Source: a virus. From it: DNA of 23,732 bases. The stretch lies in the IMG/VR virus record IMGVR_UViG_3300022818_000042, positions 1 to 23,732 of that record; one strand, given 5' to 3'. Each line of letters begins with the position of its first letter. Position 1 is the stretch's first letter. The notes beneath the pieces were generated by a model. The model saw nothing but the letters and a program-made list of their open reading frames with translations. It did no database searches and was not told the DNA's origin. The position numbers and the translations under genes are program-made. Shown here in pieces: positions 2,291 to 23,049 of the stretch.

Positions 2291-2392
2291 TGTGTCAAAT
2301 GTGTCCAAAGTATCGGATTATTGAGGTTTTTTACTCCATTTAGTCCAGTGTTTCCAGTTAGTGTTAGCTTGTAAGCTAAGCGATAAGCTAAG
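2291..2392. repeat. Short direct and inverted repeats beside attL
   Basis: TGTGTC followed by A-rich bases occurs at 2291 and 2300. TAAGCTAAG is repeated at 2372-2380 and 2384-2392, and TTAGCTT/AAGCTAA (2364-2370 / 2373-2379) form an inverted repeat. They lie between the attachment core and the integrase gene, overlapping its stop codon. They could be integrase arm-type or excisionase sites, or a weak terminator for the integrase transcript. This is inference from position only. Confidence 0.35.
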
Positions 2393-3473
2393 TAAAAATT
2401 CTGTTGATGTTTCGTGTGGCTTCTTCAGATACTCCAGGTAAAAGGTGGCTGTAAGTATTTAAAGTTACTGTAATGCTCGAATGGCCTAAAAGTGCCTGCA
2501 CGATCTTTGGATTTGTACCCACGGCCAAGTGGTAGGAAGCGCAACTGTGACGAAGATTATGGAACGGTATCCGTGGTAGTCCCATTTTACCAAGAGTTTG
2601 TTGAAAATGGCGGAGAATGTTACGGGGAGAATAATAAGTCCCATTTTCAGTAACAAATACCACCGAGCCCGTGGCCTGCTGTTTGAGTTCCTTCAAAGCG
2701 TTTAAAGCAACATCAGGGATAGGTATTGGGCGAATTGAAGACTTAGTCTTTGGAGTTTTGACAGACAAACCGTTACCCGGAATGTATTGGAGTTGTTTGT
2801 TTACACTCAGTATCTTGGTTTCAAAATTTATGTCCGACCATTCCAAACCTAACAACTCCCCCTCACGCATACCCATAGAGACAGCGCAGGCATACAGAGC
2901 GTAGAGACGTTCATGTCGAACAAAAGTCAGAAGATCGTTAACCTGGCTAACCGTCAGAATAATTGGGGTCTTTTTATCGCTTGCCGGTGCATCCGCAAGA
3001 TCGACAACATTCCGCAGTACCAGTCCCCATTTATACGCCACCTGTAAAACTGTGTGTAGAAACTGGTGGATGTATTGAACAGTGCGTCTTGACAAACCAT
3101 CGTTTAATTTCTTGGTGTAGAGGGCTTGCAGTTGTTCAGGGCGCAGCTTACTGATTTTAATATTCCCTAGGTCTGGTGAGATATGATTTTTGATAAGCGA
3201 CTTGTACGACAATAGTGTTCTAGGAGCGAGGGTGTTCGTGGCCACGTCCTCGATGTATCTGGTAAGGAAACTATCCAGAGTTATATTTTCATCCGACAGG
3301 TAATTATTATCCTGTACGGCTTTCCTTTGTTCCAACATCCATTTTTTAACTTCCCCTTGGGTCTTTCCGTACTTGGTTCGTTTTTTACCATTAGGCAGAG
3401 TGATTTGACCTACCCAGCGGGTAAGTGTTTCGGAATAAAAGAGACTTCCTTCACCTTTCGCACGACGCTTCAT
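2388..3473 (-). CDS. int: Phage tyrosine integrase
   Basis: A 361-residue site-specific recombinase that inserts and excises the prophage at the adjacent tRNA site. Residues 1-50 form an AP2-like arm-binding domain (KGEGSLFYSETLTRWVGQIT), ~64-150 a SAM-like core-binding domain, and ~170-361 the catalytic domain. The catalytic set is complete: R203 (GMREGE), a Lys around 242-244, H305-x-x-R308 (HNLRH), H331 (LGHSS) and nucleophile Y341 (NTYSHL). The ATG at 3473 has a good SD (AAAGGAG) about six bases upstream. It is divergent from the first early gene, with ~69 bp between them, and its 3' end faces the tRNA fragment, typical of prophages integrated in tRNA genes. Nothing suggests it is inactive. 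Confidence 0.97.
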   Translation of the reverse strand: MKRRAKGEGSLFYSETLTRWVGQITLPNGKKRTKYGKTQGEVKKWMLEQRKAVQDNNYLSDENITLDSFLTRYIEDVATNTLAPRTLLSYKSLIKNHISPDLGNIKISKLRPEQLQALYTKKLNDGLSRRTVQYIHQFLHTVLQVAYKWGLVLRNVVDLADAPASDKKTPIILTVSQVNDLLTFVRHERLYALYACAVSMGMREGELLGLEWSDINFETKILSVNKQLQYIPGNGLSVKTPKTKSSIRPIPIPDVALNALKELKQQATGSVVFVTENGTYYSPRNILRHFQQTLGKMGLPRIPFHNLRHSCASYHLAVGTNPKIVQALLGHSSITVTLNTYSHLLPGVSEEATRNINRIFT

Positions 3474-3542: not shown

Positions 3543-3734
3543 ATGGGGTTACCAAGTCCAACAGAAACAAAACGCAACAAACTTCTTATAAGAGACTACA
3601 AATCTGGCAAGTTTTCCATTGTTGACTTGGTGTCTAAATATCGCATTTCTTCAGCCCGTATTTACCAGATCATAAACCGAGAGAAGAAACGTGCTGAGGC
3701 TAAATTGCCTATTGACAATAGTCTTGAGATTTAA
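3543..3734 (+). CDS. Small helix-turn-helix protein, putative early regulator
   Basis: 63 residues. The segment from about residue 14 to 50 predicts three helices with a Mor/homeodomain-like turn: SIVDLVSKYRISSARIYQII carries the A/S-x3-Y-x-I/V-S turn and a recognition helix, followed by the basic tail NREKKRAEAK. Known small proteins of this fold bind DNA as transcriptional regulators or as excisionase-like factors. Its place, divergent from int and first in the early operon, fits a lysis-lysogeny or excision control role; that is inference. The ATG at 3543 coincides with the predicted transcription start and no SD is present. No larger repressor is seen elsewhere in the window, so this gene is the best candidate for a main switch protein. 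Confidence 0.7.
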   Translation: MGLPSPTETKRNKLLIRDYKSGKFSIVDLVSKYRISSARIYQIINREKKRAEAKLPIDNSLEI

Positions 3735-3740
3735 TATCAT
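3712..3740 (+). promoter_or_regulatory. Second early promoter, near-leaderless
   Basis: TTGACA (3712-3717), 17-base spacer, TATCAT (3735-3740), then five bases to the ATG at 3746. The predicted start falls at 3746-3747. The -35 lies inside the end of the preceding gene. It is similar in layout to the promoter at 3508. Confidence 0.55.
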
Positions 3741-3745
3741 AACTT

Positions 3746-3970
3746 ATGCTAAATAAATTGATGAAAGCAAGAAACGCAAGACTTAGAAAATTCGCCAGAG
3801 AACACGTCACCGGCAAAGAGGGTGGAGAGATGTTTGGCAACTTTATGTCATTAGAGGGAACTTTTGATAACGCAGCCAGCGATTTAGAAATCATCAAAGA
3901 ATTAGAGGGTCGAAAACCATCAGAGTTTCAAAGATTTTGCGATGCAGTCCCAGCAATTGACTATAACTAA
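3746..3970 (+). CDS. Hypothetical early protein, 74 aa
   Basis: I do not recognise the family. The N-terminal 25 residues are strongly basic (KLMKARNARLRKFAREH) and probably helical, and the rest is mixed and acidic, ending AVPAIDYN. The basic helix could contact nucleic acid, but nothing more specific can be said. The ATG at 3746 lacks an SD and sits 5 bases after a TATCAT -10 box; an in-frame ATG at 3761 is a possible alternative. Its stop is immediately followed by the next start with no spacer. Confidence 0.65.
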   Translation: MLNKLMKARNARLRKFAREHVTGKEGGEMFGNFMSLEGTFDNAASDLEIIKELEGRKPSEFQRFCDAVPAIDYN

Positions 3971-4417
3971 ATGCCAGAACGTATGAACCAGATAAACCAA
4001 TCACCAGAAAAAATAGGATACGGAGATGCACCAGCCAGTGTGACTTACAGCATTACCAGTAAAAACGGATACAACATCCTTTTTACAGTCAGGGCTGAAA
4101 GTGGGCTGGACTTATTAGAGACTATGGATTCGGTTGAGAAAAAGTTGATCGCCAAAGAATACAAACCCCAGATCAAACCAACATTCGGACAAAAGAAAGA
4201 AATAGAGTATGTTCCGGAGAAACTCTGTCCAGTTGATAGCGGGAAATTAAAAGTAATTCATTCCAAAGATAACAAAACCTACTGGACTTGCGAAAATGGT
4301 AAATACGACTACGCCACCAAGACCACAACAGGTTGCAAGTTCATCTGTAGCCCTGAAACTTACGAGCAAAGAAAAACACAGTTGAAAGAAACAATAACCG
4401 TACCTGAAGATTTTTAA
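3971..4417 (+). CDS. Hypothetical protein with C-terminal zinc-ribbon-like cysteines
   Basis: 148 residues in two parts. Residues ~22-65 look like a small alpha/beta domain (SVTYSITSKNGYNILFTVRA, then a helix). Residues 84-130 contain four cysteines, C86, C107, C122 and C126, arranged as C-P-x19-C-x14-C-x3-C around YWTCENGKYDYA, which resembles a topoisomerase-type or transcription-factor zinc ribbon. It directly abuts the preceding gene and is followed after one base by a coiled-coil recombination-module protein. A role in phage DNA recombination or replication is likely from position only. No SD is present; a second ATG at 3983 (residue 5) could also start it. Confidence 0.65.
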   Translation: MPERMNQINQSPEKIGYGDAPASVTYSITSKNGYNILFTVRAESGLDLLETMDSVEKKLIAKEYKPQIKPTFGQKKEIEYVPEKLCPVDSGKLKVIHSKDNKTYWTCENGKYDYATKTTTGCKFICSPETYEQRKTQLKETITVPEDF

Positions 4418-4418
4418 A

Positions 4419-5222
4419 ATGAACGACCAATTACAACTAATAGTCAAAGAGAGTGGGTTAGAAACAACTAAATCAAAATATATTCTTGATAAGTTTACAA
4501 GTTACTTTGAGATGGCATCTGATTGGGAGAAAAAAGCCAAGACAATCATAGTAAAAGACGAGAACGACAAAACGGAAATGCAAATGGCTAGAGTTGGCAG
4601 ACTCTTTTTAAGAGAGAAAAGAATTGTCATTGAAAAAGCTCGTGTTGAATTAAAAGAACAAGCCCTCAGAGAGGGAAAAGCGATTGATGGAATAGCCAAC
4701 ATCTTAAAGGCTTTGATTATTCCAATAGAAGAATATTTAGAGAAACAAGAGAAGTTTGTTGAGATAAGAGAAGCGGAACTTACCGAGAAAAAAAGAATCG
4801 AGGAAGAAGAAAGAATTGAAAAAGAAAGACTAGCTCAGGAAGAAGCAGATAGAAAAGAACAAGAAAGAATCCGATTAGAAAATATTAAATTGCAAAAGGA
4901 AGCGGTAGCACGAGAAAAGAAATTGGCTGAAGAACAAGAGAAAGCACGGAAAGAAAAAGAATTATCCGATGCCAAATTAAAAGCTGAGCAAGAAGCTAAC
5001 GAAAAAATACAAGCGGAGATTAGAGCCAAAGCCGAAGCGGAAAGAATTAAGGCAGAAGAATTGGCTCGACTTGAAAAGGAAAAGGCAGACAAAATAATTG
5101 CCGATGAAAGAGCCAAAGCCGAAAATGAGAGATTGGAAAAAGAAAAAGCACAAAAGTTACTAGACGAACAGATTGAATGTCCGTTCTGTCATCAGAAATT
5201 TAACATAAAACTAGAACAATGA
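4419..5222 (+). CDS. Coiled-coil phage protein (DUF1351-like) with C-terminal zinc knuckle
   Basis: 267 residues. Residues 1-105 form the conserved part seen in phage proteins of the DUF1351-like group (MASDWEKKAKTIIV, FLREKRIVIEKARVELKEQA, and IIPIEEYLEKQEKFVE). Residues ~115-250 are an almost uninterrupted Glu/Lys/Arg/Ala coiled coil with heptad-like EEERIEKERLAQEEADRKEQ repeats. The last 15 residues hold CPFCHQKF, a half zinc-knuckle. Such proteins usually neighbour ssDNA-annealing or exonuclease genes in phage recombination modules; no recombinase is recognised here, so that link is indirect. The ATG lacks an SD. Its stop overlaps the next gene as ATGA. Confidence 0.7.
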   Translation: MNDQLQLIVKESGLETTKSKYILDKFTSYFEMASDWEKKAKTIIVKDENDKTEMQMARVGRLFLREKRIVIEKARVELKEQALREGKAIDGIANILKALIIPIEEYLEKQEKFVEIREAELTEKKRIEEEERIEKERLAQEEADRKEQERIRLENIKLQKEAVAREKKLAEEQEKARKEKELSDAKLKAEQEANEKIQAEIRAKAEAERIKAEELARLEKEKADKIIADERAKAENERLEKEKAQKLLDEQIECPFCHQKFNIKLEQ

Positions 5223-5362
5223 GCACCTTGACTTGGATCGAAAGTAAAAAGATGTGGTTCAACGAGCAGACCAAAGAGTGGTGGAAGATTTGCGAGGTCT
5301 GCAAGGAACACAAACACGAAGCCAAATATCCGAGGTGTATGAGTTGCACAATTAAAAAATAA
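5219..5362 (+). CDS. Small zinc-finger protein, 47 aa
   Basis: The ATG at 5219 overlaps the previous TGA as ATGA, and the frame runs to TAA at 5360-5362. The product (MSTLTWIESKKMWF, then a Trp-rich stretch) carries two CxxC pairs, CEVC and CMSC, separated by 13 residues containing HKHEAKYPR. This is a compact Cys4 zinc finger. Small Cys4 proteins are common in phage early regions and often bind nucleic acid or host proteins, but no function is assigned. Tight coupling to the coiled-coil protein, which itself ends in a zinc knuckle, supports it being real despite its size. Confidence 0.65.
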   Translation: MSTLTWIESKKMWFNEQTKEWWKICEVCKEHKHEAKYPRCMSCTIKK

Positions 5363-5367
5363 TGTTT

Positions 5368-5425
5368 CTTAGTTTGTAGGCCGGATCGTTGGGGTAACTC
5401 GCCATGATCGAGCCTACTGACTAGG
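5368..5425 (+). promoter_or_regulatory. Long hairpin covering the SD of the 5430 gene
   Basis: Three helices stack into one rod: CTTAGT (5368-5373) with ACTAGG (5420-5425), GTAGGC (5376-5381) with GCCTAC (5412-5417), and GATCGT (5384-5389) with ATGATC (5404-5409). They are separated by symmetric two-base internal loops, with a GC-rich apex around GGGGTAACTC. The right arm overlaps the only SD-like bases (AGGA, 5423-5426) before the ATG at 5430, so folding should hide the ribosome site. It may be a translational switch, a protein-binding operator or a replication-origin palindrome. There is no T-tract, so it is not a terminator. Confidence 0.6.
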
Positions 5426-5429
5426 AAAA

Positions 5430-5738
5430 ATGAAAATTTACGATTTAGTTAAAAATTTACTAACTGATAATCCAGACTTGAGGGACAGTGATAAAAAACT
5501 AATATGGAGAGTTTGGTATGAAATGGGTTTGGTTGACAATTACAGATTTATAACCAAAGACAATTTTATGAAAGCTCCATCTACTGAAACAATTCGCAGA
5601 TGCAGACAGAAGATCCAAGAAACTCACCCGGAGTTACAATCTAGTAAATGGATAAAAGCACAGAGGGAAAAGATCGCAGAACAAAAGGGAACTTATATTT
5701 ATAGGGAGGAAGTAACCGAACAAAAAAACTTAATATGA
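5430..5738 (+). CDS. Conserved-type phage early protein, probable HTH
   Basis: 102 residues beginning MKIYDLVKNLLTDNP. The layout (DSDKKLIWRVWYEMG, a linker, then APSTETIRRCRQKIQETHPEL) resembles small phage proteins found in replication regions; the APSTETIRRCRQKIQ part looks like a recognition helix of a helix-turn-helix. The exact function is not known to me. The start has a weak SD (AGGAAAA) lying inside the right arm of a long upstream hairpin, so its translation may be controlled. The stop overlaps the next gene as ATGA. Confidence 0.7.
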   Translation: MKIYDLVKNLLTDNPDLRDSDKKLIWRVWYEMGLVDNYRFITKDNFMKAPSTETIRRCRQKIQETHPELQSSKWIKAQREKIAEQKGTYIYREEVTEQKNLI

Positions 5739-5932
5739 AAATAGAACTAACAAGTGACAAACGAGAAGAGGTATTGAGACTTTTTTTACTGAATATGAAT
5801 TTACTTACGCCAGGGCAGAGAGAAATAATTATAAAAATATTTGACAGTCTTTATGGATACCCACCTATAGAGGAGGAATTTATTAAAAAAGCAGGTAAAG
5901 ACTTTACTGAAAATGCAACAAATGGAACATAG
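5735..5932 (+). CDS. Hypothetical protein, 65 aa
   Basis: Starts at 5735 by ATGA overlap with the preceding stop. It is mostly helical and amphipathic (EVLRLFLLNMNLLTPGQREI, then IIKIFDSLYGYPPIEEEF). There is no signal peptide, cysteine motif or recognisable domain. Its last 20 bases overlap the start of the following zinc-finger gene in another frame. The family is unknown to me; coding is supported by the compact overlap arrangement. Confidence 0.55.
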   Translation: MKIELTSDKREEVLRLFLLNMNLLTPGQREIIIKIFDSLYGYPPIEEEFIKKAGKDFTENATNGT

Positions 5933-6146
5933 ATACTGTTATCAATGCAAAAAAGAAATAGAAAATAAAGTTGGTAAGTATTACTGTAGCCGGAAGTGTT
6001 GGGAGGACTGGAAAGCTGAGAATTACAAAAATAGTGCTGAAAATAAGAAACTTTTATCAATCAAAGAAATAAAAGACAGATTACGAGAAATGGGTAAGGG
6101 GAAAAAGGAAGACCAGTTTGAGCAGGCAAAAGTAATATTTAAATAA
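5913..6146 (+). CDS. Small treble-clef zinc-finger protein
   Basis: 77 residues if started at ATG 5913, 74 from ATG 5922. The N-terminal 33 residues hold C9-x2-C12-x12-C25-x3-C29 (CYQC and YYCSRKCWEDW), a pattern like FCS/MYM or treble-clef fingers, which often bind DNA, RNA or proteins. The C-terminal half is a charged helix (SIKEIKDRLREMGKGKKE). It lies between small early genes with no SD and overlaps its upstream neighbour by 20 bases. No specific partner can be inferred. Confidence 0.6.
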   Translation: MQQMEHRYCYQCKKEIENKVGKYYCSRKCWEDWKAENYKNSAENKKLLSIKEIKDRLREMGKGKKEDQFEQAKVIFK

Positions 6147-6148
6147 AA

Positions 6149-6703
6149 ATGAATAAAAACTTAATTACAGACTTATTTATTACCGGAATGCTCGTTGTAG
6201 CTTTTACAGGCTGGGACGTGGCACACTCCAAGAATATGTCTATTAAAGCGGCAAATGTACCTTCTGTGAGCCCTACCGCAACGTTAGCACCTACTCCGGC
6301 ACCAATACCACCATGCGTTACTTTTACACCATACGACACGTTAATTGAAAAGTATTTTAAAGATTCTTGTAATGTAAAAAGAATATTGAGATGGGTATCT
6401 ACTGACGGAAAATTATATGGTGAAAATGCTCAATTTATAACCGCAGACGCTGACAGACAAAACCATGATTTAAGTTGGGATCGAGGTTTGATGCGCATAA
6501 ACTCTAATACCTTTGCCGGTTATCTTAAAAGAATGCCTAAACTTATGCATGAAAACGGTTTATATGAATGGAACGATATGCTAGACGTAGAAAAGAATAT
6601 ACGAATGGCAAGTATTATTTACACTTATCAAGGATATTGCGCATGGTACGCTGCACCAAACGACTTGTGTAGTAATAATTATCCGGGGATCAAATCACAA
6701 TGA
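6149..6703 (+). CDS. Membrane-anchored lysozyme/transglycosylase-like protein
   Basis: 184 residues: a short basic N-terminus and one membrane helix (~residues 6-24, ITDLFITGMLVVAFTGW), a Pro/Thr-rich linker (~37-55, SVSPTATLAPTPAPIPP), then a C-terminal domain resembling soluble lytic transglycosylases. Family features are GLMRINSNTF (113-122, the GLMQIN motif), MLDVEKNIRMAS (144-155, the L-x-D-P-x-x-N-I segment) and CAWYAA (164-169). The catalytic Glu, expected in an ESG-like motif after the first helix, is not evident: that place reads WVSTDGK (82-88). The protein may therefore be inactive, bind peptidoglycan only, or use another residue. It sits in the early region, away from any lysis cassette, and its stop overlaps ninG as ATGA. 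Confidence 0.65.
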   Translation: MNKNLITDLFITGMLVVAFTGWDVAHSKNMSIKAANVPSVSPTATLAPTPAPIPPCVTFTPYDTLIEKYFKDSCNVKRILRWVSTDGKLYGENAQFITADADRQNHDLSWDRGLMRINSNTFAGYLKRMPKLMHENGLYEWNDMLDVEKNIRMASIIYTYQGYCAWYAAPNDLCSNNYPGIKSQ

Positions 6704-7131
6704 TTATATCTAAACCAAAAAAAATAACTTTAAGTAAGACTAAAGCAAAAGCTTGGTCGGCTTTTAGTATTTTTATTCGTACAAGAGACGCTTTCAAGAC
6801 AACCGGAACACTTGACAAAGCCTTGTGTGTTACTTGTGAAAGACGATATCCAATTAAAAAAATTGGAGGATTACAAGCTGGTCATTTCATTCAAGGTCGC
6901 CATCCGTCAGTGTTATTTGACGAGAGAAATTGCCACGCACAATGTTACGGTTGCAACGTGATGAAAAAAGGCAATATGGTTAAGTATTACAAATTTATGC
7001 TTAAAAATTATGGACAAGAGGTAATAGATGAGCTTGAATTACTCGACACCAAACTTACATTTTTATCTGCCGGTGATTATTTAGACATATACGAAACATA
7101 TAAGTTCAAACTTGGTGAATTAACATTATGA
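6700..7131 (+). CDS. NinG/Rap-like recombination protein
   Basis: 143 residues resembling lambda NinG (Rap), which helps phage recombination by cutting branched DNA such as Holliday junctions and D-loops. Visible features are an N-terminal KAKAWSAFSIFIRTRD helix, the zinc pair C43-x2-C46 (CVTCERR), H62 in LQAGHFIQGRHPS, and the cluster NCHAQCYGCNV with C78, C82 and C85. This Cys/His layout is characteristic of NinG and of related HNH-type metal sites. The length is shorter than lambda NinG (about 200 residues), mainly at the N-terminus. It overlaps both neighbours by ATGA, showing a continuous early operon. Confidence 0.8.
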   Translation: MIISKPKKITLSKTKAKAWSAFSIFIRTRDAFKTTGTLDKALCVTCERRYPIKKIGGLQAGHFIQGRHPSVLFDERNCHAQCYGCNVMKKGNMVKYYKFMLKNYGQEVIDELELLDTKLTFLSAGDYLDIYETYKFKLGELTL

Positions 7132-7238
7132 AAAGATTTACAGATTGGTGGATTGGGAACGAAGAAACAATTAGTATGTATATTGGAGTTTTTATGACTG
7201 GTATTGCGATTGGTTTTTTGATAGAGAAACTTAGATGA
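7128..7238 (+). CDS. Tiny single-pass membrane protein, 36 aa
   Basis: The ATG at 7128 overlaps the ninG-like stop (ATGA), and the frame ends with TGA at 7236-7238, itself overlapping the next ATG. The product has a charged N-terminus (MKRFTDWWIGNEE), one hydrophobic helix (YIGVFMTGIAIGFLI) and a basic end (EKLR). That the ATGA overlap is kept on both sides argues that it is translated. It could be a holin-like or membrane-effector peptide, but no family is recognised. Confidence 0.5.
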   Translation: MKRFTDWWIGNEETISMYIGVFMTGIAIGFLIEKLR

Positions 7239-7372
7239 TTAAAAGATTTCTACATATATTTGGAATACATAAATGGAGTGATTGGTATCCTGGTCAAGAT
7301 TACGACATTCGTTATAAGTGGCGTACCTGTTGGCTTTGTGACAAGACAGAAGAAGAATACTTAAATGATTAA
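7235..7372 (+). CDS. Small hypothetical protein, 45 aa
   Basis: Starts at 7235 by ATGA overlap and ends with TAA at 7370-7372. It is rich in Trp and Tyr (HKWSDWYPGQDYDIRYKW) with one CxxC pair near the end (CWLC). It is probably a small single-knuckle protein of unknown role. The frame fits exactly between two other overlapping genes, which is the main evidence that it is real. Confidence 0.45.
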   Translation: MIKRFLHIFGIHKWSDWYPGQDYDIRYKWRTCWLCDKTEEEYLND

Positions 7373-7748
7373 AATGAAACATAAATTTATAGGAGTATTT
7401 ACAACAGATGGTAGTAAATGGTGTGAAATCCACGATAAGTTTGAATTAGTTAAGACTGTAAAGACACATAAATCTAAAATGACAAACAAACAAATACAAA
7501 AAATGAAAATTGAAAATATCTATGTAGCTCACGGAAACATAACTCACCCAATGGGAGCTAAGTGTAAATTCTGTGACAAACTTAAAAAAGAAAGTGAACC
7601 TGTTATTGAAATGTTGAATCAAGCCTTAAAAATGCAAAGATTAAGTTATGTAAAGAAAGTGGAGAGTTTAAAAGAACATGAAGGCTTTATTGTAATAACG
7701 AAAAAACAACTTTTACAATTACTAGAGTTAGAACATAAAATAGAATGA
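7365..7748 (+). CDS. Hypothetical protein with one CxxC, 127 aa
   Basis: The start is ATG 7365 (overlapping the previous gene by 8 bases) or ATG 7374 three codons later; no SD favours either. Residues ~1-60 are beta-rich (HKFIGVFTTDGSKWCEIHDK), then a HGNITHPMGAKCKFCDKLKK segment with a CxxC and His, then a helical, charged C-terminal half ending LLQLLELEHKIE. This may be a metal-binding plus coiled-coil design. I do not recognise the family. Confidence 0.6.
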   Translation: MIKMKHKFIGVFTTDGSKWCEIHDKFELVKTVKTHKSKMTNKQIQKMKIENIYVAHGNITHPMGAKCKFCDKLKKESEPVIEMLNQALKMQRLSYVKKVESLKEHEGFIVITKKQLLQLLELEHKIE

Positions 7749-7751
7749 AGC

Positions 7752-7940
7752 ATGGAGAGAATAAATAGATCACAAGATGAAAATCTATACCAGCCAAAGA
7801 TTGTCTCAGACCAAATAAGGAAACTGTACCAGGTGAAACTGGATACCGGAGTACCTCTTACAGTCATGGTTTATAAAGCAATAGGGGAGTATTTAGAAAA
7901 GTACGAAACAGAAAATGATAGAAAGATTAATCGGGGTTGA
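7752..7940 (+). CDS. Ribbon-helix-helix-like small protein
   Basis: 62 residues. The segment from ~16 to 52 (KIVSDQIRKLYQVKLDTGVP, then LTVMVYKAIGEYLEKYE) fits the CopG/Arc-type RHH pattern: a short strand, an amphipathic helix, G-x-P turn, and a second helix ending in EYLEKYE. RHH proteins act as dimeric DNA-binding regulators or antitoxins. Its 3' end overlaps the metalloprotease gene by 26 bases, a spacing seen in regulator/effector pairs, but the partner here is not a known toxin. TAGAAT lies five bases before the ATG; without a good -35 I do not call a promoter. Confidence 0.6.
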   Translation: MERINRSQDENLYQPKIVSDQIRKLYQVKLDTGVPLTVMVYKAIGEYLEKYETENDRKINRG

Positions 7941-8748
7941 CGTAAAGCCGGCTCTACAAAAACACCAGGAAAATGCGAATTGGGAGTACCGTGAGGAAGC
8001 TGCGTTCTGGTACGACATCAGTAAAGAGATGGACAATCGTTTCTTTAATGGGCTAGTCTATCCGGATGGCAAAAAAGTCCCAGCTCCTGTAATAGCTTTT
8101 GACGACCTCCGCAATAAAAACACTTTAGCTTGCTACGACTTATACCCGGATGGTTACGGGATAATCGGAAAGATAACTTTAAACACTGAACACTACATCG
8201 AAAAGGATGGGAAAAAGGAATGGAGGTTGGGGAAGTATTCCCAGGGTGAGACACTTTTGCACGAGTACGTTCATCTTTGGCAACAGATCGGCAGGGGGAA
8301 AGACCCGTATACATCTAAAAAAGGGAGAGACAGTCATAACAAAGAATTTGTAGCGTTTGCCGAACAGTTAGGTATCCACCCCATGCCGGTGATCGGGTGT
8401 CATACAAGGATTGCTACAGCCGGCAGCCCGATTGATATTCTTTTAAAAGAGAGAGGAATCTTTCCGCCTGAGAAAGCCTACACACGAACAGATAACGAAA
8501 AAATCAGTTGGGCTGATTGGCTAATTATTATCGGTGGCGGAGAAAAACCAAAAGGCAGATCAAGTTTAAACAACTGGGTTTGCCCGGAGTGTAAAATTCA
8601 CGCCCGAATGGGGATCAAAGGTAATCCTGAAATAATTCACGATCCGTGCAGCCAAAAAAAAGGAGAAAAGGTATTCTTTGTCAGAGCACAAGAGGGCACA
8701 CATCAGACAATTTATAAAGCTGAGAGGAATACGATACCTAAAACATAA
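7915..8748 (+). CDS. SprT-like zinc metalloprotease domain protein
   Basis: 277 residues. The active-site helix LLHEYVHLWQ gives H116-E117-x2-H120, and a downstream H141 in DSHNKEF is the likely third zinc ligand, as in the SprT/Spartan (WSS1-like) family. A preceding segment with FFNGLVYP and PAPVIAF matches the family's N-terminal strands. The C-terminal region has a zinc-ribbon-like CPEC (C223, C226) with a third Cys at 245 in HDPC. SprT-like enzymes in eukaryotes cut DNA-protein crosslinks; the role of bacterial and phage members is not settled. It overlaps the RHH gene by 26 bases. Moderate Lys/Glu content and full motifs suggest an active enzyme. Confidence 0.8.
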   Translation: MIERLIGVDVKPALQKHQENANWEYREEAAFWYDISKEMDNRFFNGLVYPDGKKVPAPVIAFDDLRNKNTLACYDLYPDGYGIIGKITLNTEHYIEKDGKKEWRLGKYSQGETLLHEYVHLWQQIGRGKDPYTSKKGRDSHNKEFVAFAEQLGIHPMPVIGCHTRIATAGSPIDILLKERGIFPPEKAYTRTDNEKISWADWLIIIGGGEKPKGRSSLNNWVCPECKIHARMGIKGNPEIIHDPCSQKKGEKVFFVRAQEGTHQTIYKAERNTIPKT

Positions 8749-8750
8749 AC

Positions 8751-8972
8751 ATGACTTGTGAATTTTGTCCAAATAAGATTTGCTACAACTTTGGAAATGG
8801 TTTAGTCAGTGTTGATAAAAACGAGGAAGTATCTTTCAACTTTAAACAAACCATCGATGAATGTAAAGATGCAATGGAAATGGAAGCAGAAGACGAAGCC
8901 CTAAGGATCATCGAAAATACGCCAGAAGATCAAGAACCAGACAATCCGTTTTACTACGAGGATAACTTCTAA
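8751..8972 (+). CDS. Acidic hypothetical protein with N-terminal cysteines
   Basis: 73 residues. The N-terminus MTCEFCPNKIC has a CxxC plus a third Cys, and the remainder is strongly acidic (ECKDAMEMEAEDEALRIIEN, ending in YYEDNF). Small acidic proteins of phages may mimic DNA or bind basic host proteins, but there is no specific match. It is two bases downstream of the metalloprotease stop and its TAA overlaps the stop of the convergent methyltransferase gene by two bases, so no terminator separates the opposing transcripts. Confidence 0.55.
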   Translation: MTCEFCPNKICYNFGNGLVSVDKNEEVSFNFKQTIDECKDAMEMEAEDEALRIIENTPEDQEPDNPFYYEDNF

Positions 8973-9544
8973 GGATTGTAAATGCTTTTCCTTGGTACAT
9001 AAGTCTCGGTTTGATCGCCCCAACTGCACCAACCCTCACGGGGTATACGGGCAAACAGTTCAAGGTAAGGCCCAGGTGAACACTGTTCAATAATTGGATA
9101 GAGTTCATCAGGCTTTCGGGAATGTTCACGCTTACGAGTAGAGATAATATTCGGCATTGATCTACCTGGTTGAAGAGTACGCATACTTCCTCTCACACCA
9201 AAGAGAACTATCTCGGTAACATTACGGAAATAGAAACCTACACCACGTCTATCGGGTCCACCATCTTTGCGAATCTTATACCAGATGATATTAGTTTTAT
9301 AGGTGAATCCCCAGGTCTTCATTACCTCAAGACCGAGACTGACTAAAGCATTCGGCACCCAAAGATATAAATGGGATTTGGAATCAGCAATACTTGCAAC
9401 AGGAAAATTGATGATGTCTTCATTGGTCATGGTTTGATACCGATAAAGACGTTTGTGTTCTGGAGCAATCTTTCCAGTACGGTTATCGAATTTCCATGGT
9501 GGATCAACCAATATTGTTGAAAATTTGCCTTCGGGTAAGTCCAC
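8969..9544 (-). CDS. MT-A70 family DNA adenine methyltransferase
   Basis: 191 residues, an N6-adenine methyltransferase of the MT-A70 (beta-type) class that transfers methyl from SAM to adenine in DNA. The catalytic motif D14-P-P-W17 lies in ILVDPPWKFD. Other family segments are HLYLWVPNALVSLGLEVMKT, WGFTYKTNIIWYK, NVTEIVLFGVRG, and the C-terminal KPDELYPIIE and YLELFAR (SAM-binding). The start is GTG 9544 with AGAGG seven bases upstream. The GTG overlaps the TAG of the endonuclease gene by one base, so the pair is co-translated. As partner of a restriction endonuclease it would protect the recognition site; the target sequence cannot be read from the protein. Confidence 0.9.
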   Translation of the reverse strand: MDLPEGKFSTILVDPPWKFDNRTGKIAPEHKRLYRYQTMTNEDIINFPVASIADSKSHLYLWVPNALVSLGLEVMKTWGFTYKTNIIWYKIRKDGGPDRRGVGFYFRNVTEIVLFGVRGSMRTLQPGRSMPNIISTRKREHSRKPDELYPIIEQCSPGPYLELFARIPREGWCSWGDQTETYVPRKSIYNP

Positions 9545-10140
9545 TATTCATCCTCTACAAACAAACTTGATTTGATACCGAATACCATTACAGGACAACC
9601 ACCACCCCCACCACCTTCCAACCGATTCTTAATGTGGCGCATGTGTGTGGTGTTTTGGCCATATTTAGCACCAATTTCTCTACCGAAAGAATTAAATAGA
9701 GATTGAAGCTCATCTGTTCTAGTTATTATAACCCCAACTGAGATAACCCGTAAGTCAAAAAGTAAACGAAAATTGTTTAAATCTCGATCAAAGAATGGGT
9801 CTTTGTTATTCCATTCAACTTCGACACCGATGTGATTTTTATATTCATCGACTTTATGTGTTGGGGAGTGGATTGTGTTTCCATCGACATCGATGCTGGT
9901 TTGAAATTGTCTTTCTTCCCAACCACGGCTTGTGAAAGCGGTGTCAATGAATTGGGCTAAGTCAGTCTTTCTACCACCTTTGTTTATTATGTAACTTTTT
10001 CTCAAACGGAAGACATTTAAAATATCCATGATGTCAGTCCATTCGTCAGGGAAGTCTTTATATAGGATAGCCGAAGCGTGTCTCCATTCGTGAACTTCAT
10101 AATTCTCTCGGATAAACTGAGGAACATCAATGAGTGCCAC
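9544..10140 (-). CDS. BglII-family type II restriction endonuclease
   Basis: Likely a DNA endonuclease of the BglII fold. The key segment is GVEVEWNNKDPFFDRDLNNF followed by FDLRVISVGVIITR, the conserved core of that family. Counting from the longest frame, D103, E112 and E114 reproduce the BglII active-site spacing (D84, E93, Q95), with Glu instead of the Gln. A six-Gly run precedes the C-terminal strand. The GTG at 10140 is chosen because GGAGGG lies four bases upstream; an in-frame GTG at 10155 would overlap that SD. The product is ~198 residues. It is transcribed ahead of the methyltransferase on the minus strand, against the flanking early and late genes, as a self-contained restriction-modification cassette. 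Confidence 0.8.
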   Translation of the reverse strand: MALIDVPQFIRENYEVHEWRHASAILYKDFPDEWTDIMDILNVFRLRKSYIINKGGRKTDLAQFIDTAFTSRGWEERQFQTSIDVDGNTIHSPTHKVDEYKNHIGVEVEWNNKDPFFDRDLNNFRLLFDLRVISVGVIITRTDELQSLFNSFGREIGAKYGQNTTHMRHIKNRLEGGGGGGCPVMVFGIKSSLFVEDE

Positions 10141-10205
10141 ATTACCCTCCGCCACTTAAGATTTTAAAATCATATTGTAAGCGGAATTTGATTACTTGAC
10201 TGTAT

Positions 10206-10234
10206 TTGCTATCGCCAACTGGTTACTCTATAAT
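10206..10234 (+). promoter_or_regulatory. Promoter of the HNH-terminase operon, leaderless
   Basis: TTGCTA (10206-10211), 17-base spacer, perfect TATAAT (10229-10234). The expected start is 10241, exactly the A of the HNH gene ATG. It starts plus-strand transcription just beyond the divergent restriction-modification cassette. Confidence 0.7.
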
Positions 10235-10240
10235 CATGAT

Positions 10241-10567
10241 ATGGGGGAAAAACAATATAAATCTTCACTTGAACAACGAAACTATATGAAGTTGTGGCAG
10301 GAGAGAAATCGGGAATATCGAACAGAATATCATAGGAATTATCGCAAAACTAAAAATGGGAAATTAGCAACATATCGGGCAAGAGATAAATATGAATTGT
10401 TACATCCAGAAAGAAGAAGAGCATGGAGAGAAGCCGCAAAAATAGAGAATAAACCCTGCGAAGTTTGTGGGGTATTTCCATCACATAGACATCATCCCGA
10501 TGTTAGCCAACCATTAAACATTGTCTTTCTTTGTCCTTTACATCATAGACAAATTCACCTATCTTGA
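10241..10567 (+). CDS. HNH endonuclease-like protein
   Basis: 108 residues: a basic, Tyr/Arg-rich helical N-terminal half (YRTEYHRNYRKTKNGK) and a C-terminal zinc HNH module with C73-x2-C76 (CEVCG), H84/H85 (SHRHHPD), N93 and C98-x2-H101-H102 (LCPLHHRQIH). HNH proteins commonly sit beside terminase genes and assist DNA cleavage during packaging, or act as homing nucleases. The adjacent small and large terminase genes favour the packaging role. The ATG at 10241 is chosen over the upstream ATG at 10196, which lies in front of the promoter, because it coincides with the predicted transcription start. Confidence 0.8.
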   Translation: MGEKQYKSSLEQRNYMKLWQERNREYRTEYHRNYRKTKNGKLATYRARDKYELLHPERRRAWREAAKIENKPCEVCGVFPSHRHHPDVSQPLNIVFLCPLHHRQIHLS

Positions 10568-10589
10568 CAGTTATGCTAAACTGCAATCA

Positions 10590-11015
10590 ATGTCGACACT
10601 GAAACAAAAGAAAGCTTCAAAATTGGTAGAAATTGGTAGAACACTAGGCGAGGTGATGGTTGAGGCCGGTTATTCACCAAACACAGCAAAAGCTCCTACT
10701 AAACTAACTAATTCAAAAGGGTGGATAGAACTAATGGATAAGTATTTACCGGATGATGAGGTATTAGCTGAACATCAAAAAGGATTACACGCTACCAAAC
10801 CTATTGGCGCATTAGTTATCATTAAAAAGGATGGAGAGAGAGAAGTTATATATAAAGATAACGAGGGGGTAATTGAAGTTGACGATACGCCCACTAGACT
10901 TAAAGCAGTGGAGTTAGCTTACAAAGTGAAAGGTAAGATGAAAGAGGTAAGTGTTAATCAACAATTTAACTTTGGGAAGGTTTTACAAGATGAACGAAAA
11001 GAATTTGCAATATAA
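10590..11015 (+). CDS. Terminase small subunit-like protein
   Basis: 141 residues from ATG 10590. The N-terminal half contains a helix-turn-helix typical of small terminases (KLVEIGRTLGEVMVEAGYSP followed by NTAKAPTKLTNSKGWIELMD), which would bind phage DNA at the packaging site. The middle is a beta-rich segment (ALVIIKKDGEREVIYKD), and the C-terminus has a short helical part (LKAVELAYKVKGKM). It lies directly before the large terminase, overlapping it by 26 bases, and 22 bases after the HNH gene. An upstream ATG at 10521 would run through the HNH gene and is rejected. Confidence 0.75.
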   Translation: MSTLKQKKASKLVEIGRTLGEVMVEAGYSPNTAKAPTKLTNSKGWIELMDKYLPDDEVLAEHQKGLHATKPIGALVIIKKDGEREVIYKDNEGVIEVDDTPTRLKAVELAYKVKGKMKEVSVNQQFNFGKVLQDERKEFAI

Positions 11016-11796
11016 AAGATTTATCGAAACTAGATTTAATATCGTCAACAAACAGGCCGAGATAGTTCCCTTCACCTTAAATAAAACACAAGAAAAGTAT
11101 CTTTTAGAAGATTACACCGGCAGGGATGTAATCCTTAAAGCCCGACAACAAGGATTTTCCTCACTTATACTAGCCATGTTTACAGCAGATTTTATACTTA
11201 AGGACAATCAACGAAACGTAATTGTGGCTGATATATCAGACAACGCTTCAGAATTATTAGATAGAGTCAAATCTTACATAAAGAGTTATGAAGAGATCAA
11301 GGGAATCAAAGTACCCTTGAAATACAATTCCAAATATGAATTGTTTAATGAGGCGACTAATTCACGATACACAATAGGAACTGCTGACAATGTTGACTTT
11401 GGAAGAAGTAAGACTATAACCAATCTTCATTTGTCGGAGGCGGCTTTCTATGGAAATTTAAACAAGATGTTTTCAGGATCAATGCAGGCAGTAGTTGAAA
11501 CGGGAAGGATAATTTTAGAAACTACAGCCAATGGTTATGGATACTTTAAAAGTTTCTGGGATGAATGTAAGTTGGGTGACAGGCCGTTCAAACCACTGTT
11601 TTATAAAGCGAGTGATTTTTATTCCCCGGAGTTTCTGGCTAATAAAAGACTTGAGTTAAAAGAGTTGTATCCTCAAGAATATCCCGAAACAGACATGGAA
11701 GCATTCTTAAGTTCAGGAGAGATGTTCTTTAATAGTGAAAGTCTTAAATGGTATCTGGATAGTAGTAAAAAACCCAATTATGTTCAGACAATTTAG
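10990..11796 (+). CDS. Terminase large subunit, ATPase part (frame ends early)
   Basis: 268 residues, the packaging motor ATPase that pumps DNA into the prohead. Walker A variant K50-ARQQGFSS58, Walker B region ITNLHLSEAAF with E150, and coupling motif LETTANG (~177-183) are all visible. The frame stops at TAG 11794-11796 before the nuclease domain, which continues in the +1 frame. The overlap contains a six-A run (11767-11772) followed by CCC: removing one A would restore a single ~480-residue terminase. It may be a true mutation, a sequencing or assembly homopolymer error, or a programmed +1 frameshift. The ATG at 10990 is preferred over an upstream ATG at 10951; it overlaps the small terminase and has no SD. 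Confidence 0.85.
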   Translation: MNEKNLQYKRFIETRFNIVNKQAEIVPFTLNKTQEKYLLEDYTGRDVILKARQQGFSSLILAMFTADFILKDNQRNVIVADISDNASELLDRVKSYIKSYEEIKGIKVPLKYNSKYELFNEATNSRYTIGTADNVDFGRSKTITNLHLSEAAFYGNLNKMFSGSMQAVVETGRIILETTANGYGYFKSFWDECKLGDRPFKPLFYKASDFYSPEFLANKRLELKELYPQEYPETDMEAFLSSGEMFFNSESLKWYLDSSKKPNYVQTI

Positions 11797-12421
11797 AGAG
11801 TTTGAAAGAGATGAATTTATAGTTGTAGCCGCAGATACTTCAAGCGGTCTGGGAGATTATTGTGCGGCACAGTTTATCAGTAAGACCAAGATAGACGTTC
11901 CTTTGGTTTATCATTCAAAGACAATCGCAACCGAGATGACTAACATGCTCTATCCGGCACTTGAAAAGATATTTGATATCACAGGAATTAAACCTGTTGT
12001 TGCTTATGAGAGGAACGCCGGGGGAACATTTGAAATAGAAAGACTTGGAAGCATGAATAGATTGGGGAAGTTTACTATGTTCCAAATGCCGACAATGGGA
12101 CAGATAAACCCGTCCGATCCTGTTAAATATGGTTGGGATACGAACACAGCCACAAGACCAGCAATGTTATCTCAATTAAAAGAAGCGATTGATAAAAGAC
12201 TTCTTAAACTCTATGACAAAGTAACCATTGAGGAAATGTATTCATTTATTGTAACCCGAACCAGTGTGAATGTTAAAGCCCAAGCAGAACAAGGATGTCA
12301 TGACGACTTGGTAATGAGTTTGGCGATAGCATGGCAAATGTATCAGATATGTAATACACCGGATAGTACAGAAATACCCTCTCTTTCTAAAAACTTATTT
12401 GAACCAGGAGGATTTTATTGA
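11780..12421 (+). CDS. Terminase large subunit, nuclease part
   Basis: 213 residues if begun at ATG 11780; open upstream to the frameshift region near 11767. It is the RNase H-like endonuclease domain that cuts concatemeric phage DNA. Acidic catalytic residues are placed as in TerL nucleases: D19 in VVAADTSSG, E77 in VAYERNAGG, and D175/D176 in CHDDLVMSLAIAW. ATG 11780 has no SD, so independent start is possible but weak; normal TerL is a single chain. Its TGA shares one base with the next gene's ATG. Key residues look intact, so if the split is an error the enzyme is functional. Confidence 0.85.
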   Translation: MFRQFREFERDEFIVVAADTSSGLGDYCAAQFISKTKIDVPLVYHSKTIATEMTNMLYPALEKIFDITGIKPVVAYERNAGGTFEIERLGSMNRLGKFTMFQMPTMGQINPSDPVKYGWDTNTATRPAMLSQLKEAIDKRLLKLYDKVTIEEMYSFIVTRTSVNVKAQAEQGCHDDLVMSLAIAWQMYQICNTPDSTEIPSLSKNLFEPGGFY

Positions 12422-12762
12422 TGGATATATCAGAACACAACTTACCACCTTTTAGTGAACTGGAGAAAATAATAGAAACCCAGAAGTATGGTTCTGTATC
12501 TGCTTCATTTGAAATTTATCAAGGTAAGATTGTTGCTATTCAGGGAAATCAAGTCACGCATTTGAGATTCAAAGACGACAGAAATACAGATGCCACCTCT
12601 GTTATATTAACTGAGATTAAAGATATGCACACTGGAAAGAAATCTGGTAATTTTACATTTACTATTAAGTTTGGAGAGGGTGAAATAAAAGACTTATTTA
12701 TTTATAGAAACTTAAACAGATCCTATCCAATTGACAAAGGTCTGACAAGTGATATAAGATAA
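12421..12762 (+). CDS. Hypothetical protein, weak DUF2292-like N-terminus
   Basis: 113 residues. The region YGSVSASFEIYQGKIVAIQ resembles small DUF2292-type proteins (YGSV, strand, DGKIV, strand), and the rest is beta-rich (SGNFTFTIKFGEGEIKDLFI). Function is unknown. This is one of the few plus-strand phage genes with a clear SD: AGGAGG nine bases before ATG 12421, six before an alternative TTG at 12418. It lies between large terminase and portal. Its last ~30 bases also contain the -35 and -10 boxes of the promoter driving the conserved RNA element that follows. Confidence 0.6.
   Translation: MDISEHNLPPFSELEKIIETQKYGSVSASFEIYQGKIVAIQGNQVTHLRFKDDRNTDATSVILTEIKDMHTGKKSGNFTFTIKFGEGEIKDLFIYRNLNRSYPIDKGLTSDIR
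12731..12759 (+). promoter_or_regulatory. Promoter of conserved RNA element copy 1
   Basis: TTGACA at 12731-12736 is followed by overlapping -10 choices: TATAAG (12753-12758, 16-base spacer) or ATAAGA (12754-12759, 17-base spacer). The predicted start is at about 12766, the A of AGTCCGAGAGC, matching the start point predicted for copy 2 at 23085. Confidence 0.6.
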
Positions 12763-12765
12763 TAC

Positions 12766-12821
12766 AGTCCGAGAGCTTTAAAGCACACGACACCTATTAA
12801 TTCGTAGGTGTCTTTTTTTTT
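12766..12821 (+). ncRNA. Conserved short RNA/leader element, copy 1 (before portal)
   Basis: The ~56-base transcript starts AGTCCGAGAGCT, has a small GCTTTAAAGC palindrome, then GCACAC, and ends in an intrinsic terminator. Copy 2 at 23085-23141 shares AGTCYGAGAGCT, AAGCACA and GAC-x-CCTA at the same spacing (one base longer). The terminator stem shows a compensatory A-T to G-C change. Each copy has its own promoter and ends ~10-14 bases before a gene ATG. It may be a late leader whose terminator is overcome by an antiterminator (as lambda pR'-tR'), a put-like antitermination RNA, or a free small RNA. The function is inferred; the structure is seen. Confidence 0.55.
12789..12821 (+). terminator. 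Intrinsic terminator of RNA element copy 1
   Basis: Perfect 8-pair stem GACACCTA (12789-12796) / TAGGTGTC (12805-12812), eight-base loop, followed by nine T. It lies 14 bases before the portal ATG, so portal expression needs readthrough or another promoter. Confidence 0.9.
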
Positions 12822-12835
12822 GAATAAATATAGTC

Positions 12836-14764
12836 ATGCCCAAACTACCCAAAAAGAAACAAGACAAACTACCAGTAAAGACTGTAGCCAGTCCAACTGC
12901 TTCTGTTGCTAAATTCGAAGAAGACTTCAAGAAAGCAGATAATGCTATTAGTAATTTAAGAGATACATGGAATGATGCGGAAAAGATGTTCTTCAATGAC
13001 CTTAAAGGTAAAGCAGCTGAAACAGCTAAATCAAATGTTAATGATGGACATTTATCTACTGCAATAATTCAAAGAACTCAAAGAGTGATGGCACAACTCG
13101 CCATTGGTAAGACAACTTCACTTGATTCAACAAACAAAGGCAAAGAACTTTTAATGGGAATGATAGTTGAGAAATATATTAAACCCAATGCTAATAATCA
13201 ATTTAAACACTTAGCCAAACATAAGTTGGTTTCAATGTACTCCCAGATATACGGATCAATGCCGGTACTCCTGGATTACTTTGTAACAGATAACTATGTA
13301 GGACCAGACTTCGTACTAATTCCCATGAGACAGTATTACCCTCAACCCGGAGTCTACCAGGAGAATGAAATGGATTATTGCTATGTTGATTCATTTGTAA
13401 GCAAAGACTATCTAAATAATCTAACAGGGGATTGGAAGAAAGAAAACATCGATAAAGTGATGGAAGCAATGAAAGAGGGACAAGGTAAGAGCCATGCACA
13501 GTACTCATATCAATCATATCCTGAAACCAAATGGGGCGGTGGAGAACAGGGATCAACGGGTAAGTTTGCCAGATTGCTATTAAGAACCCGCTATGAAAGA
13601 GAGAGGTGGGTCACCTATTCACCAGATTATCCGCAAGCAGGGTTATTAAGAGATATACCTAATCCACACAAGAATCACAAGTTACCCGTATTAGTTAAGA
13701 ACACCATCCCATTATTAGATCGTGCTACCGGACTGGGGGATGTCGAGAGAGGAACGCCGTTGCAAAAGACCATGAACTCAGTTCTAAACTTATCTTTAGA
13801 CACATGGAAGTATGGACTTTTCTCCCCAATTATATTAAATCGCTCTGGTGTGGTAACAAGTTCTATTAAATGGGAACCTTTAGCTATCTGGGAAGAGACG
13901 CAACCCAATTCAATCCGACAATTACAAATGAGCACAACCGGAACTAATAATTTTCAGGCTTATATGGGGTATTTAACATCAACAATCAACAATTTGTTAG
14001 GTACTAATGATGCTTCAGTATCAACAGTCGTAGACCCGTCTATGGGTAGGACTCCTCAAGCACTTAAAATGCAGGCTTCCAAGGAATCAGCGGCTGATGC
14101 TTGGGAAAGACAGTCGATGGAAGAGTTTATAGAAGAACTTTACGACAGATTTATCGACATGATAGCTACCATCCAACCCAAACCAATTGAATTAAAGCTA
14201 TTTGAGGGTGAGATAGCCAACATTCAAGCTACATATCCCGATATTAAAGAAATGTACGATGAAAAGAGCGGCAAAATGACTATCAAACCCGATGCTATTA
14301 AAGGAAAGTATAAGTTCTATATCAATTCAGGCTCAACTACGATCAAAGATCAGGTTGCAGAGAACCAAGCCATAGTTCAACTCCTTGGTTTGTTTATGCA
14401 GTCCCCGCAATTCATTCAGGTATTAAGGGAAAAGGGCAAAGATATAGACTTTGGTGAGTTAATTCAAAGATTAGTAGCTACTTCGGGAATAAGCGACTCT
14501 GACAAGATCATTACTCAATACGTACCCCCTGTAGCCGCACCAGTTCAACCAGGACAACCACAAATGGATCAAAATGGTCAACCAATGGCACAAGATCCCA
14601 ATGCACAACCAATGCCAGGACAGCAAGGTCAAAATCCAATGGCTTCGCCACAACCAGGTCAGCAACAGGGAATAACACAAATGCCGGATCTTTCACAATT
14701 CCAAGATCCGCAGATTAGAGCGGTAGCAAAAAGTTTATTTGCACAAAATGCTCAAAATAAATAA
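12836..14764 (+). CDS. Portal protein
   Basis: 642 residues. It forms the dodecameric ring at one capsid vertex through which DNA passes and to which the tail attaches. Assignment rests on length, position directly after terminase and before scaffold/capsid, and the typical mixed fold: an N-terminal helical part (FEEDFKKADNAISNLRDTW), a central wing/stem with WEPLAIWEETQPNSIRQLQM and GRTPQALKMQASKESAADAW, the latter resembling portal C-terminal crown helices. The last ~120 residues are Pro/Gln/Gly-rich (QPGQPQMDQNGQPMAQDP) and probably flexible. No SD precedes ATG 12836; the upstream 15 bases follow directly on the terminator T-tract. Confidence 0.85.
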   Translation: MPKLPKKKQDKLPVKTVASPTASVAKFEEDFKKADNAISNLRDTWNDAEKMFFNDLKGKAAETAKSNVNDGHLSTAIIQRTQRVMAQLAIGKTTSLDSTNKGKELLMGMIVEKYIKPNANNQFKHLAKHKLVSMYSQIYGSMPVLLDYFVTDNYVGPDFVLIPMRQYYPQPGVYQENEMDYCYVDSFVSKDYLNNLTGDWKKENIDKVMEAMKEGQGKSHAQYSYQSYPETKWGGGEQGSTGKFARLLLRTRYERERWVTYSPDYPQAGLLRDIPNPHKNHKLPVLVKNTIPLLDRATGLGDVERGTPLQKTMNSVLNLSLDTWKYGLFSPIILNRSGVVTSSIKWEPLAIWEETQPNSIRQLQMSTTGTNNFQAYMGYLTSTINNLLGTNDASVSTVVDPSMGRTPQALKMQASKESAADAWERQSMEEFIEELYDRFIDMIATIQPKPIELKLFEGEIANIQATYPDIKEMYDEKSGKMTIKPDAIKGKYKFYINSGSTTIKDQVAENQAIVQLLGLFMQSPQFIQVLREKGKDIDFGELIQRLVATSGISDSDKIITQYVPPVAAPVQPGQPQMDQNGQPMAQDPNAQPMPGQQGQNPMASPQPGQQQGITQMPDLSQFQDPQIRAVAKSLFAQNAQNK

Positions 14765-15074
14765 CGCATACAAAATAATTGAAGACGCAGGTAAAAGAGA
14801 TTCCAAAAAGGATGACTTAAATCTTGACAGTTTTGCCAGGACTGTAGGGTGGATTACTTTAAGGGATGCAGTAATTAAACCCAAGATAGCCGGACTTTTA
14901 ATAATGCAGGATGATTTAGATAAAGTCTTGACAGGTGAAGAAACTAAGGAGGTGTACGCTGAAAGGGCGATCATCGCAAGGATGGTAGCTAAACACTTAC
15001 AAGATGTCATCGACAAAGTGGAAACAACAAGAGGATATTTCGACGACGAACTCGAAAGAGCAAAGTCCGAGTGA
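14748..15074 (+). CDS. Hypothetical structural-region protein, 108 aa
   Basis: Starts at ATG 14748, overlapping the portal 3' end by 17 bases. It is mainly helical, with segments NNAYKIIEDAGKRDSKKDD and VYAERAIIARMVAKHLQDVI. It is not recognised; the place between portal and scaffold suggests a small virion or assembly factor. It lacks an SD. Confidence 0.6.
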   Translation: MLKINNAYKIIEDAGKRDSKKDDLNLDSFARTVGWITLRDAVIKPKIAGLLIMQDDLDKVLTGEETKEVYAERAIIARMVAKHLQDVIDKVETTRGYFDDELERAKSE

Positions 15075-15285
15075 AGATGATCCTTTGCACATTGAAAGTG
15101 AACGGGGTGAACCTTTAGTCAATCCTGGCATAGCAGGACATAACTGGAAACAGAATGGTCCCTACTTAGTTTGTGACGGTTGTAAAGTCAAACACGCACA
15201 ATATATAGGAGTAGATAGATTCTTAACAGGATTTGATAATGGAATACCAATTTTAAAAACATTAAAGGACGTGCTAGGTAGATAA
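15004..15285 (+). CDS. Hypothetical protein with zinc-knuckle motif
   Basis: 93 residues from ATG 15004, a start that overlaps the preceding gene by 71 bases; a TTG at 15085 would avoid this and give 66 residues. The first ~35 residues are Ser/Glu/Lys-rich and look like an out-of-frame reading, which makes the shorter form attractive. The C-terminal half has LVCDGCKVKHAQYIG, a CxxC...H knuckle, followed by a short hydrophobic end. Function is unknown. It precedes a ~100-base non-coding leader with hairpins. Confidence 0.5.
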   Translation: MSSTKWKQQEDISTTNSKEQSPSEDDPLHIESERGEPLVNPGIAGHNWKQNGPYLVCDGCKVKHAQYIGVDRFLTGFDNGIPILKTLKDVLGR

Positions 15286-15287
15286 TT

Positions 15288-15390
15288 CGGCAGAGTTATT
15301 TATCTAACAGGTTTTTTAACCTAGATGCGGCCGACCCAATCTTTAAATGTGGTCTTGAGAATTTATCTCTATTAGAGACGAGGTGAAAAA
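15288..15390 (+). promoter_or_regulatory. Structured non-coding leader before the scaffold gene
   Basis: Hairpin AGGTT (15309-15313) / AACCT (15318-15322) is extended by ATCT/AGAT and closed by CGGC (15288-15291) / GCCG (15330-15333). A second GACC/GGTC pairing and TCTC/GAGA lie between it and the SD (GAGGTG, 15380-15385). No T-tract follows the first hairpin, so it is not an obvious terminator. It may be a processing or stability element of late mRNA. Confidence 0.4.
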
Positions 15391-15391
15391 T

Positions 15392-16195: not shown

Positions 16196-16202
16196 TAGAA
16201 GG

Positions 16203-16274: not shown

Positions 16275-16282
16275 AAACAAAT

Positions 16283-17176: not shown

Positions 17177-17190
17177 GCCGTGTTTTTGTA

Positions 17191-17212: not shown

Positions 17213-17222
17213 AAACAAGAAT

Positions 17223-17890: not shown

Positions 17891-17893
17891 AAT

Positions 17894-19876: not shown

Positions 19877-19929
19877 GGAAGAAAAGAAATAAAAACCAAC
19901 CCCGAGAATTCCTGGCTTTAAAGTAATCC

Positions 19930-23037: not shown

Positions 23038-23049
23038 AACCCATGACCC

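Follow-up and report, generated by a model that had tools for sequence, protein, structure and literature searches.

Hairpins at phage gene starts

The RNase III sites of the phage T7 early region are irregular and intergenic. The T7 substrate R1.1 is cut into pieces of 47 and 13 nt, according to the part of PMC4858673 that deals with it, and resembles the hairpin described here in being a hairpin substrate of about 60 nt from a polycistronic phage transcript, a likeness of size; in contrast with R1.1-type sites, the right arm of our hairpin covers the next start region and its cleavage is only proposed. In phage T4, passages of PMC3014915 describe helices over the Shine-Dalgarno (SD) sequence and/or the AUG of e, soc, 49, and I-TevI that lower 30S binding, with the same start-closing arrangement as here, and attribute the relief of gene e to late transcripts initiated within the left strand. 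Unlike in gene e, a sigma-70-type scan of our sequence lists no promoter inside the hairpin. The long helix of Staphylococcus aureus cspA, as presented in a section of PMC3386247, hampers ribosome binding, and its trimming by RNase III leads to better binding; that case is experimental and concerns the 5' UTR of one gene, whereas ours is computed and lies between two phage genes. Finally, the portion of PMC12548453 on f1 VII-IX and rpmI-rplT describes inhibitory structures at a downstream start, as here, the stop and the start being +62 nt apart in the altered f1 and +52 nt apart in rpmI-rplT. The upstream gene of f1 extends into the hairpin, whereas the one in our sequence stops just before the whole hairpin.

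The window analysed here, a virus record, is 23,732 bases long. Its left end carries NDK, RsfS, and LigT genes followed by an integrase gene (2388-3473, - strand), and farther to the right there are genes for NinG, for an endonuclease of the BglII type together with an MT-A70 methylase, and for a capsid protein of the SU10 type. This gene content looks like that of a temperate phage plus a piece of host DNA. The restriction endonuclease (PF09195, E 6e-43) and the adjoining methylase occupy 8969-10155, and the window has 4 AGATCT sites against 6.3 expected. The terminase large subunit seems to be split between overlapping frames (10951-11796 and 11735-12421), and a 70-nt inverted repeat (22397-22466/23663-23732, 99% complementary) has one arm at the contig end and is possibly an assembly artefact. 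The capsid protein was searched for in 15 related phage records and had no match there, so that phages with the early genes in common may differ in their capsids. In 3543-7131, with the + strand ORFs as read here, a single gap exceeds 11 nt; it lies between a small gene, whose product had no PHROGs or Pfam match among those listed, and the gene that starts at 5430 (hereafter gene 5430; Table 1).

The stem-loop in the gap before gene 5430

The hairpin in this gap is real and beyond chance. Its minimum free energy (MFE) of -34.1 kcal/mol compares with an average of -15.2 (sd 2.75) for shuffles and was equalled by none of 200 of them, and the rod is retained when 221 nt of sequence are folded together. 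A scan of 68-nt segments at 4-nt steps, listing the 12 best places per strand, had it as the strongest fold of the phage part, equal folds being found only to the left of position 2000, in DNA that is GC-rich and host-like. From base to tip, the computed fold has a foot of 10 bp, two helices of 6 bp each, and a weak tip ending in the terminal loop UAACU (5395-5399). A U-U mismatch separates the foot from the first of the two helices, a 2x2 internal loop (C-A, G-G) lies between them, and a U is bulged above the second; three of the 25 pairs are G-U, and two of the 10 in the foot are U-G. The original prediction had proposed three 6-bp helices, and all of them occur in the predicted fold (5368-5373/5420-5425, 5376-5381/5412-5417, and 5384-5389/5404-5409), but the foot is four pairs longer, so that the hairpin takes up the 67-base gap, starting 2 nt past the previous stop and ending 1 nt short of ATG 5430. 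The extent claimed for the fold, nearly the whole gap, therefore holds, as does the local GC excess (48%, compared with 39% before it, at 5100-5362, and 33% after it, at 5430-5738). The AGG at 5423-5425, supposed to be the last paired bases, is indeed paired, but pairing continues through three A (5426-5428).

Table 1. Coordinates of the hairpin, its parts, and the neighbouring genes.
Feature	Position	Strand	Basis or remark
RNA stem-loop	5365-5428	+	MFE fold, z -6.87
Foot, left arm	5365-5374	+	Pairs with 5419-5428 in predicted fold
Foot, right arm	5419-5428	+	Holds AGGA 5423-5426 ahead of the ATG
Middle helix, left arm	5376-5381	+	Pairs with 5412-5417
Upper 6-bp helix	5384-5389/5404-5409	+	Predicted fold
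Upstream small gene, 47 aa, two CxxC pairs	5219-5362	+	ORF list; stop TAA 5360-5362
Intergenic gap, 67 bases	5363-5429	+	Between 47-aa and 102-aa genes
Downstream gene, 102 aa, winged-helix-like model	5430-5738	+	ORF list, structure model
TAATG stop/start overlap with 5-codon mini-ORF through left arm (speculative)	5362-5379	+	Read from sequence

No Rfam covariance model matched in the window at gathering score, or up to E 10 in 5250-5550. RNase III sites of the T7 type are irregular intergenic rods of about 20 or more pairs, and the hairpin, with 25 pairs in a 67-base gap, is a rod of this kind. It also contains GTAGGCCGGAT, which may resemble enterobacterial REP repeats; further copies were not found in the window and 111 loci. 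Intrinsic terminators have a U-tract right after the stem, and on the + strand the hairpin lacks one: the stem is followed by AATGAAAA, and a terminator scan gave no site there. This absence speaks against the hairpin being a leaky terminator, or marking a boundary of mRNA decay or stability for the gene upstream, in which occlusion of the next start would be a side effect of tight packing. The position of the right arm, which ends closer to the ATG than a 3'-end stabiliser should need, also argues against this explanation, which we consider improbable even though stems are common soon after the capsid stop in the window and 14 relatives (13 of 15 by eye; z -3.0 or lower in 5 of 15) and, among the background gaps of 40-130 nt, 16 out of 128 contain a fold of z < -3. 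The capsid-stop set leaves aside L116 and L117 as repeats of L115, and L119 and L122 are the members without a stem.

The window has a second strong hairpin, at 17178-17226, after the capsid gene, with its right arm over ATG 17223 (-27.2; antisense -17.4; z about -7). Its value as proof of a design shared with the hairpin before gene 5430 is weakened by the frequency of stems after the capsid stop in relatives. Elsewhere, two intergenic hairpins that seem to be shared between loci (L099 4962 with L101 4265, and L055 1987 with L069 2400) are followed by T-runs and are probably terminators.

The + strand folds better than the - strand, even when each is compared with shuffles of the same composition: the - strand RNA of the region reaches -23.9 (z -4.54). 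Composition explains part of this computed strand difference, the shuffle means being -15.0 (+) and -10.7 (-) in this comparison. A similar bias appears in the start regions of the window and related phage loci. MFE was below -20 on either strand in 277 of 1005 of them, 53 of these 277 had z < -3 on one strand or the other, with the sense strand the lower in 41 of the 53 (p 8e-5), in a test that selected both strands alike from loci thinned by shared 30-mers but mutually non-independent. These asymmetries favour an mRNA element over a DNA palindrome and tell against the earlier suggestion of a DNA origin. More generally, we find it very unlikely that the hairpin acts as DNA, whether as an origin, a recombination site, or a small palindromic mobile-element remnant. 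It does fold as single-stranded DNA (-14.9, z -5.03) and is so far lineage-specific, as expected of an insertion, but it has three G-U pairs on the + strand and no second copy in the window, 111 loci, plasmids, or viral contigs, and the number of GATC sites in the window, 73, is what chance would give (73.25).

Closure of the start region and its possible relief

The start region of gene 5430 is paired in a stable helix beyond chance, as in start-occluding hairpins of phage mRNAs, in keeping with the occlusion that the original prediction had supposed. Opening positions -18 to +15 has a computed cost of 17.3 kcal/mol, which ranks second among 28 hand-picked + strand starts (the costliest, 16271, is a TTG and probably miscalled), and the AGGA at 5423-5426 has a P(unpaired) of 0.00 in the free state, although the start codon itself is mostly unpaired (P 0.66). 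The label of SD sequence given to the AGG fared less well: SD cores are at chance, in 3 of 24 hand-picked ATG starts (3543-23345) against 4.15 expected from shuffles, and this role of the AGG is doubtful. The 24 starts are the 28 minus 7235, 10196, 10521, and 15383, with 16271 moved to 16283.

Loss of the left half relieves this closure in the computed folds. With the 5' end of the RNA at 5384 the opening cost falls to 4.0 kcal/mol, and across ends at 5384, 5396, 5405, 5411, and 5413 it lies between 3.7 and 6.5 kcal/mol; deletion of 5363-5395 gives 5.8 kcal/mol. By contrast, an end at 5376, which removes the left arm of the foot, still leaves 14.9 kcal/mol, so a relieving cut must lie higher in the rod, in or above the middle helix. 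With opening at about 17 kcal/mol, at 4-7 without the left half, and at 14.9 without the foot arm, the hairpin probably limits gene 5430 until opened. These opening costs suggest that, if transcribed from upstream, it probably holds down translation of the gene.

Our preferred, if still tentative, reading is that of a cis-acting RNA stem-loop that limits gene 5430 and is opened by an RNase III-type cut or, partly, by the ribosome of the upstream gene. The element would belong to a polycistronic + strand mRNA from a phage of temperate type in which, we infer, the two genes are co-transcribed. When closed, the hairpin would block ribosome entry at 5430 and translation would be weak, with correspondingly little protein; an RNase III-type cut in the rod would take off the left half and open the start; and a ribosome finishing the upstream gene, with its footprint over the left arm of the foot, would open it in part. 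The closed start, the absence of terminator features, and the length of the rod, which at 64 nt is near the size of the T7 R1.1 substrate, are all consistent with this mechanism.

The contribution of the upstream ribosome can be gauged from the fold. When the footprint of a terminating ribosome, which covers the left arm of the foot, is masked, P(unpaired) of the AGGA rises from 0.00 to 0.44 and the opening cost goes from 17.0 to 13.9 kcal/mol, a small and partial relief. Together with the start of the left arm 2 nt past the stop codon, the freed AGGA would suit a coupling device alone, in which the terminating ribosome opens the foot and both genes are made together with no cleavage. The cases of coupling by unfolding at +52 (rpmI-rplT) and +62 (altered f1) given in the part of PMC12548453 cited above offer precedents, and the TAATG overlap would permit reinitiation through the left arm. 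However, most of the opening cost remains, hairpins in compact phage genomes probably tend to abut both genes anyway, and, in the same portion of PMC12548453, structure just after the stop codon correlated negatively with coupling, the f1 stop at +62 is still inside the hairpin, and coupling was lost at +89, with the stop well upstream. Coupling alone is therefore unlikely in our estimate, and opening by cleavage, or in part by the ribosome, remains the reading that we prefer.

Homologues of gene 5430 and relatives of the hairpin

The original prediction also offered a translational operator or a binding site for a phage protein. Such an operator could be bound by the product of gene 5430 itself, for which a 53-member family alignment gave a confident helical model (mean pLDDT 88.6). 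Foldseek returned no match to this model at E 0.001 or better, and VIA-align over 54 chains had as its best a cullin winged-helix chain (3tdu_D, Z 5.8, rmsd 2.5, 61 aligned), a likeness that may mean only a common arrangement and is too weak to file. Three PHROGs families match 4, 1, and 1 of the 53 members, and none has a description. The winged-helix-like model would suit an operator-binding protein, as would a mismatched rod sited at a start, like known phage operators; yet proteins with winged-helix folds are for the most part DNA binders. In its terminal loop, UAACU, the hairpin is similar to the T4 gp43 operator, which has a -UAAC- loop (given in a passage of PMC3014915), but identity with that operator was rejected, the next gene encoding a product of 102 aa, too small for a gp43-like polymerase.

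The homologues of gene 5430 bear on the operator more directly. They came from IMG/VR contigs (the best 80 of 177 in one search), 10 genome contigs, and 4 Butyrivibrio phage records; upstream folds were viewed at 81 starts, including among the ten genome loci L023 alone, with L072 omitted (its match begins at base 9) and L011 outside the set. The 81 were thinned to 55, and all family counts include the window's own 5430 start. Folds of z < -4 precede 3 of the 55 family starts and 18 of 950 background starts (p 0.10), and in gaps of 40-130 nt folds of z < -3 occur in 3 of 14 family and 16 of 128 other cases (p 0.28). With z < -6 the proportions are 2/14 and 2/128 (p 0.048, one of four thresholds and uncorrected). 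Of the three folds of z < -4 among the 55 family starts, the one in L099 is followed by a T-run and may belong to a terminator. Thus, the homologues are mostly without a hairpin, which is therefore not a conserved operator of gene 5430; with folds not significantly enriched and no copy of the hairpin found, an operator tied to this gene lacks support, and binding by its product or another phage protein appears improbable.

Two other family members have folds of their own. L007/L036 has another rod (-24.0, z -6.47), which begins at the stop codon of the called upstream ORF (gap 59), and L004/L033 a branched fold (-37.7, z -5.40); the z values vary with the frame taken (-6.47, -3.1, and -6.9 for L036; -5.40, -4.4, and -0.7 for L033, representing L004). 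Local searches found no sequence likeness of either fold to the window hairpin, and the alignment of the window and L007 rods has no evident common sequence. Unrelated rods of like shape before a winged-helix-like gene (window, L007, and perhaps the branched L004) might point to a fast-evolving switch whose shape, and not its sequence, is under selection and which RNase III or the product of the gene itself would read. We find this highly improbable, 11 of 14 family gaps being without a fold of z < -3.

Searches for the hairpin itself were equally negative. Exact or degenerate patterns gave 0 hits in viral contigs, matches in the phages collection stayed at E 0.6 or worse and spanned at most 17 of the 64 bases, and plasmids had none at E 1. 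In the window outside the hairpin and the 111 loci, a set that stops short of L113, nhmmer found nothing and blastn-short just two 16-nt matches (E 2.3). As far as can be seen from these comparisons, the hairpin is lineage-specific: its type is familiar from other phages, and a copy of this one was not found in the relatives searched.

The hairpin is thus a real RNA element of an ordinary, known kind, which on paper works like the known start-closing hairpins. The sense-strand bias of strong folds before genes in the phage loci compared (41/53) suggests that many of them act as RNA and are overlooked by gene-only annotation. With the hairpin before gene 5430, one more phage, an uncultured one, would join those in which an RNA hairpin tunes individual genes of an operon.
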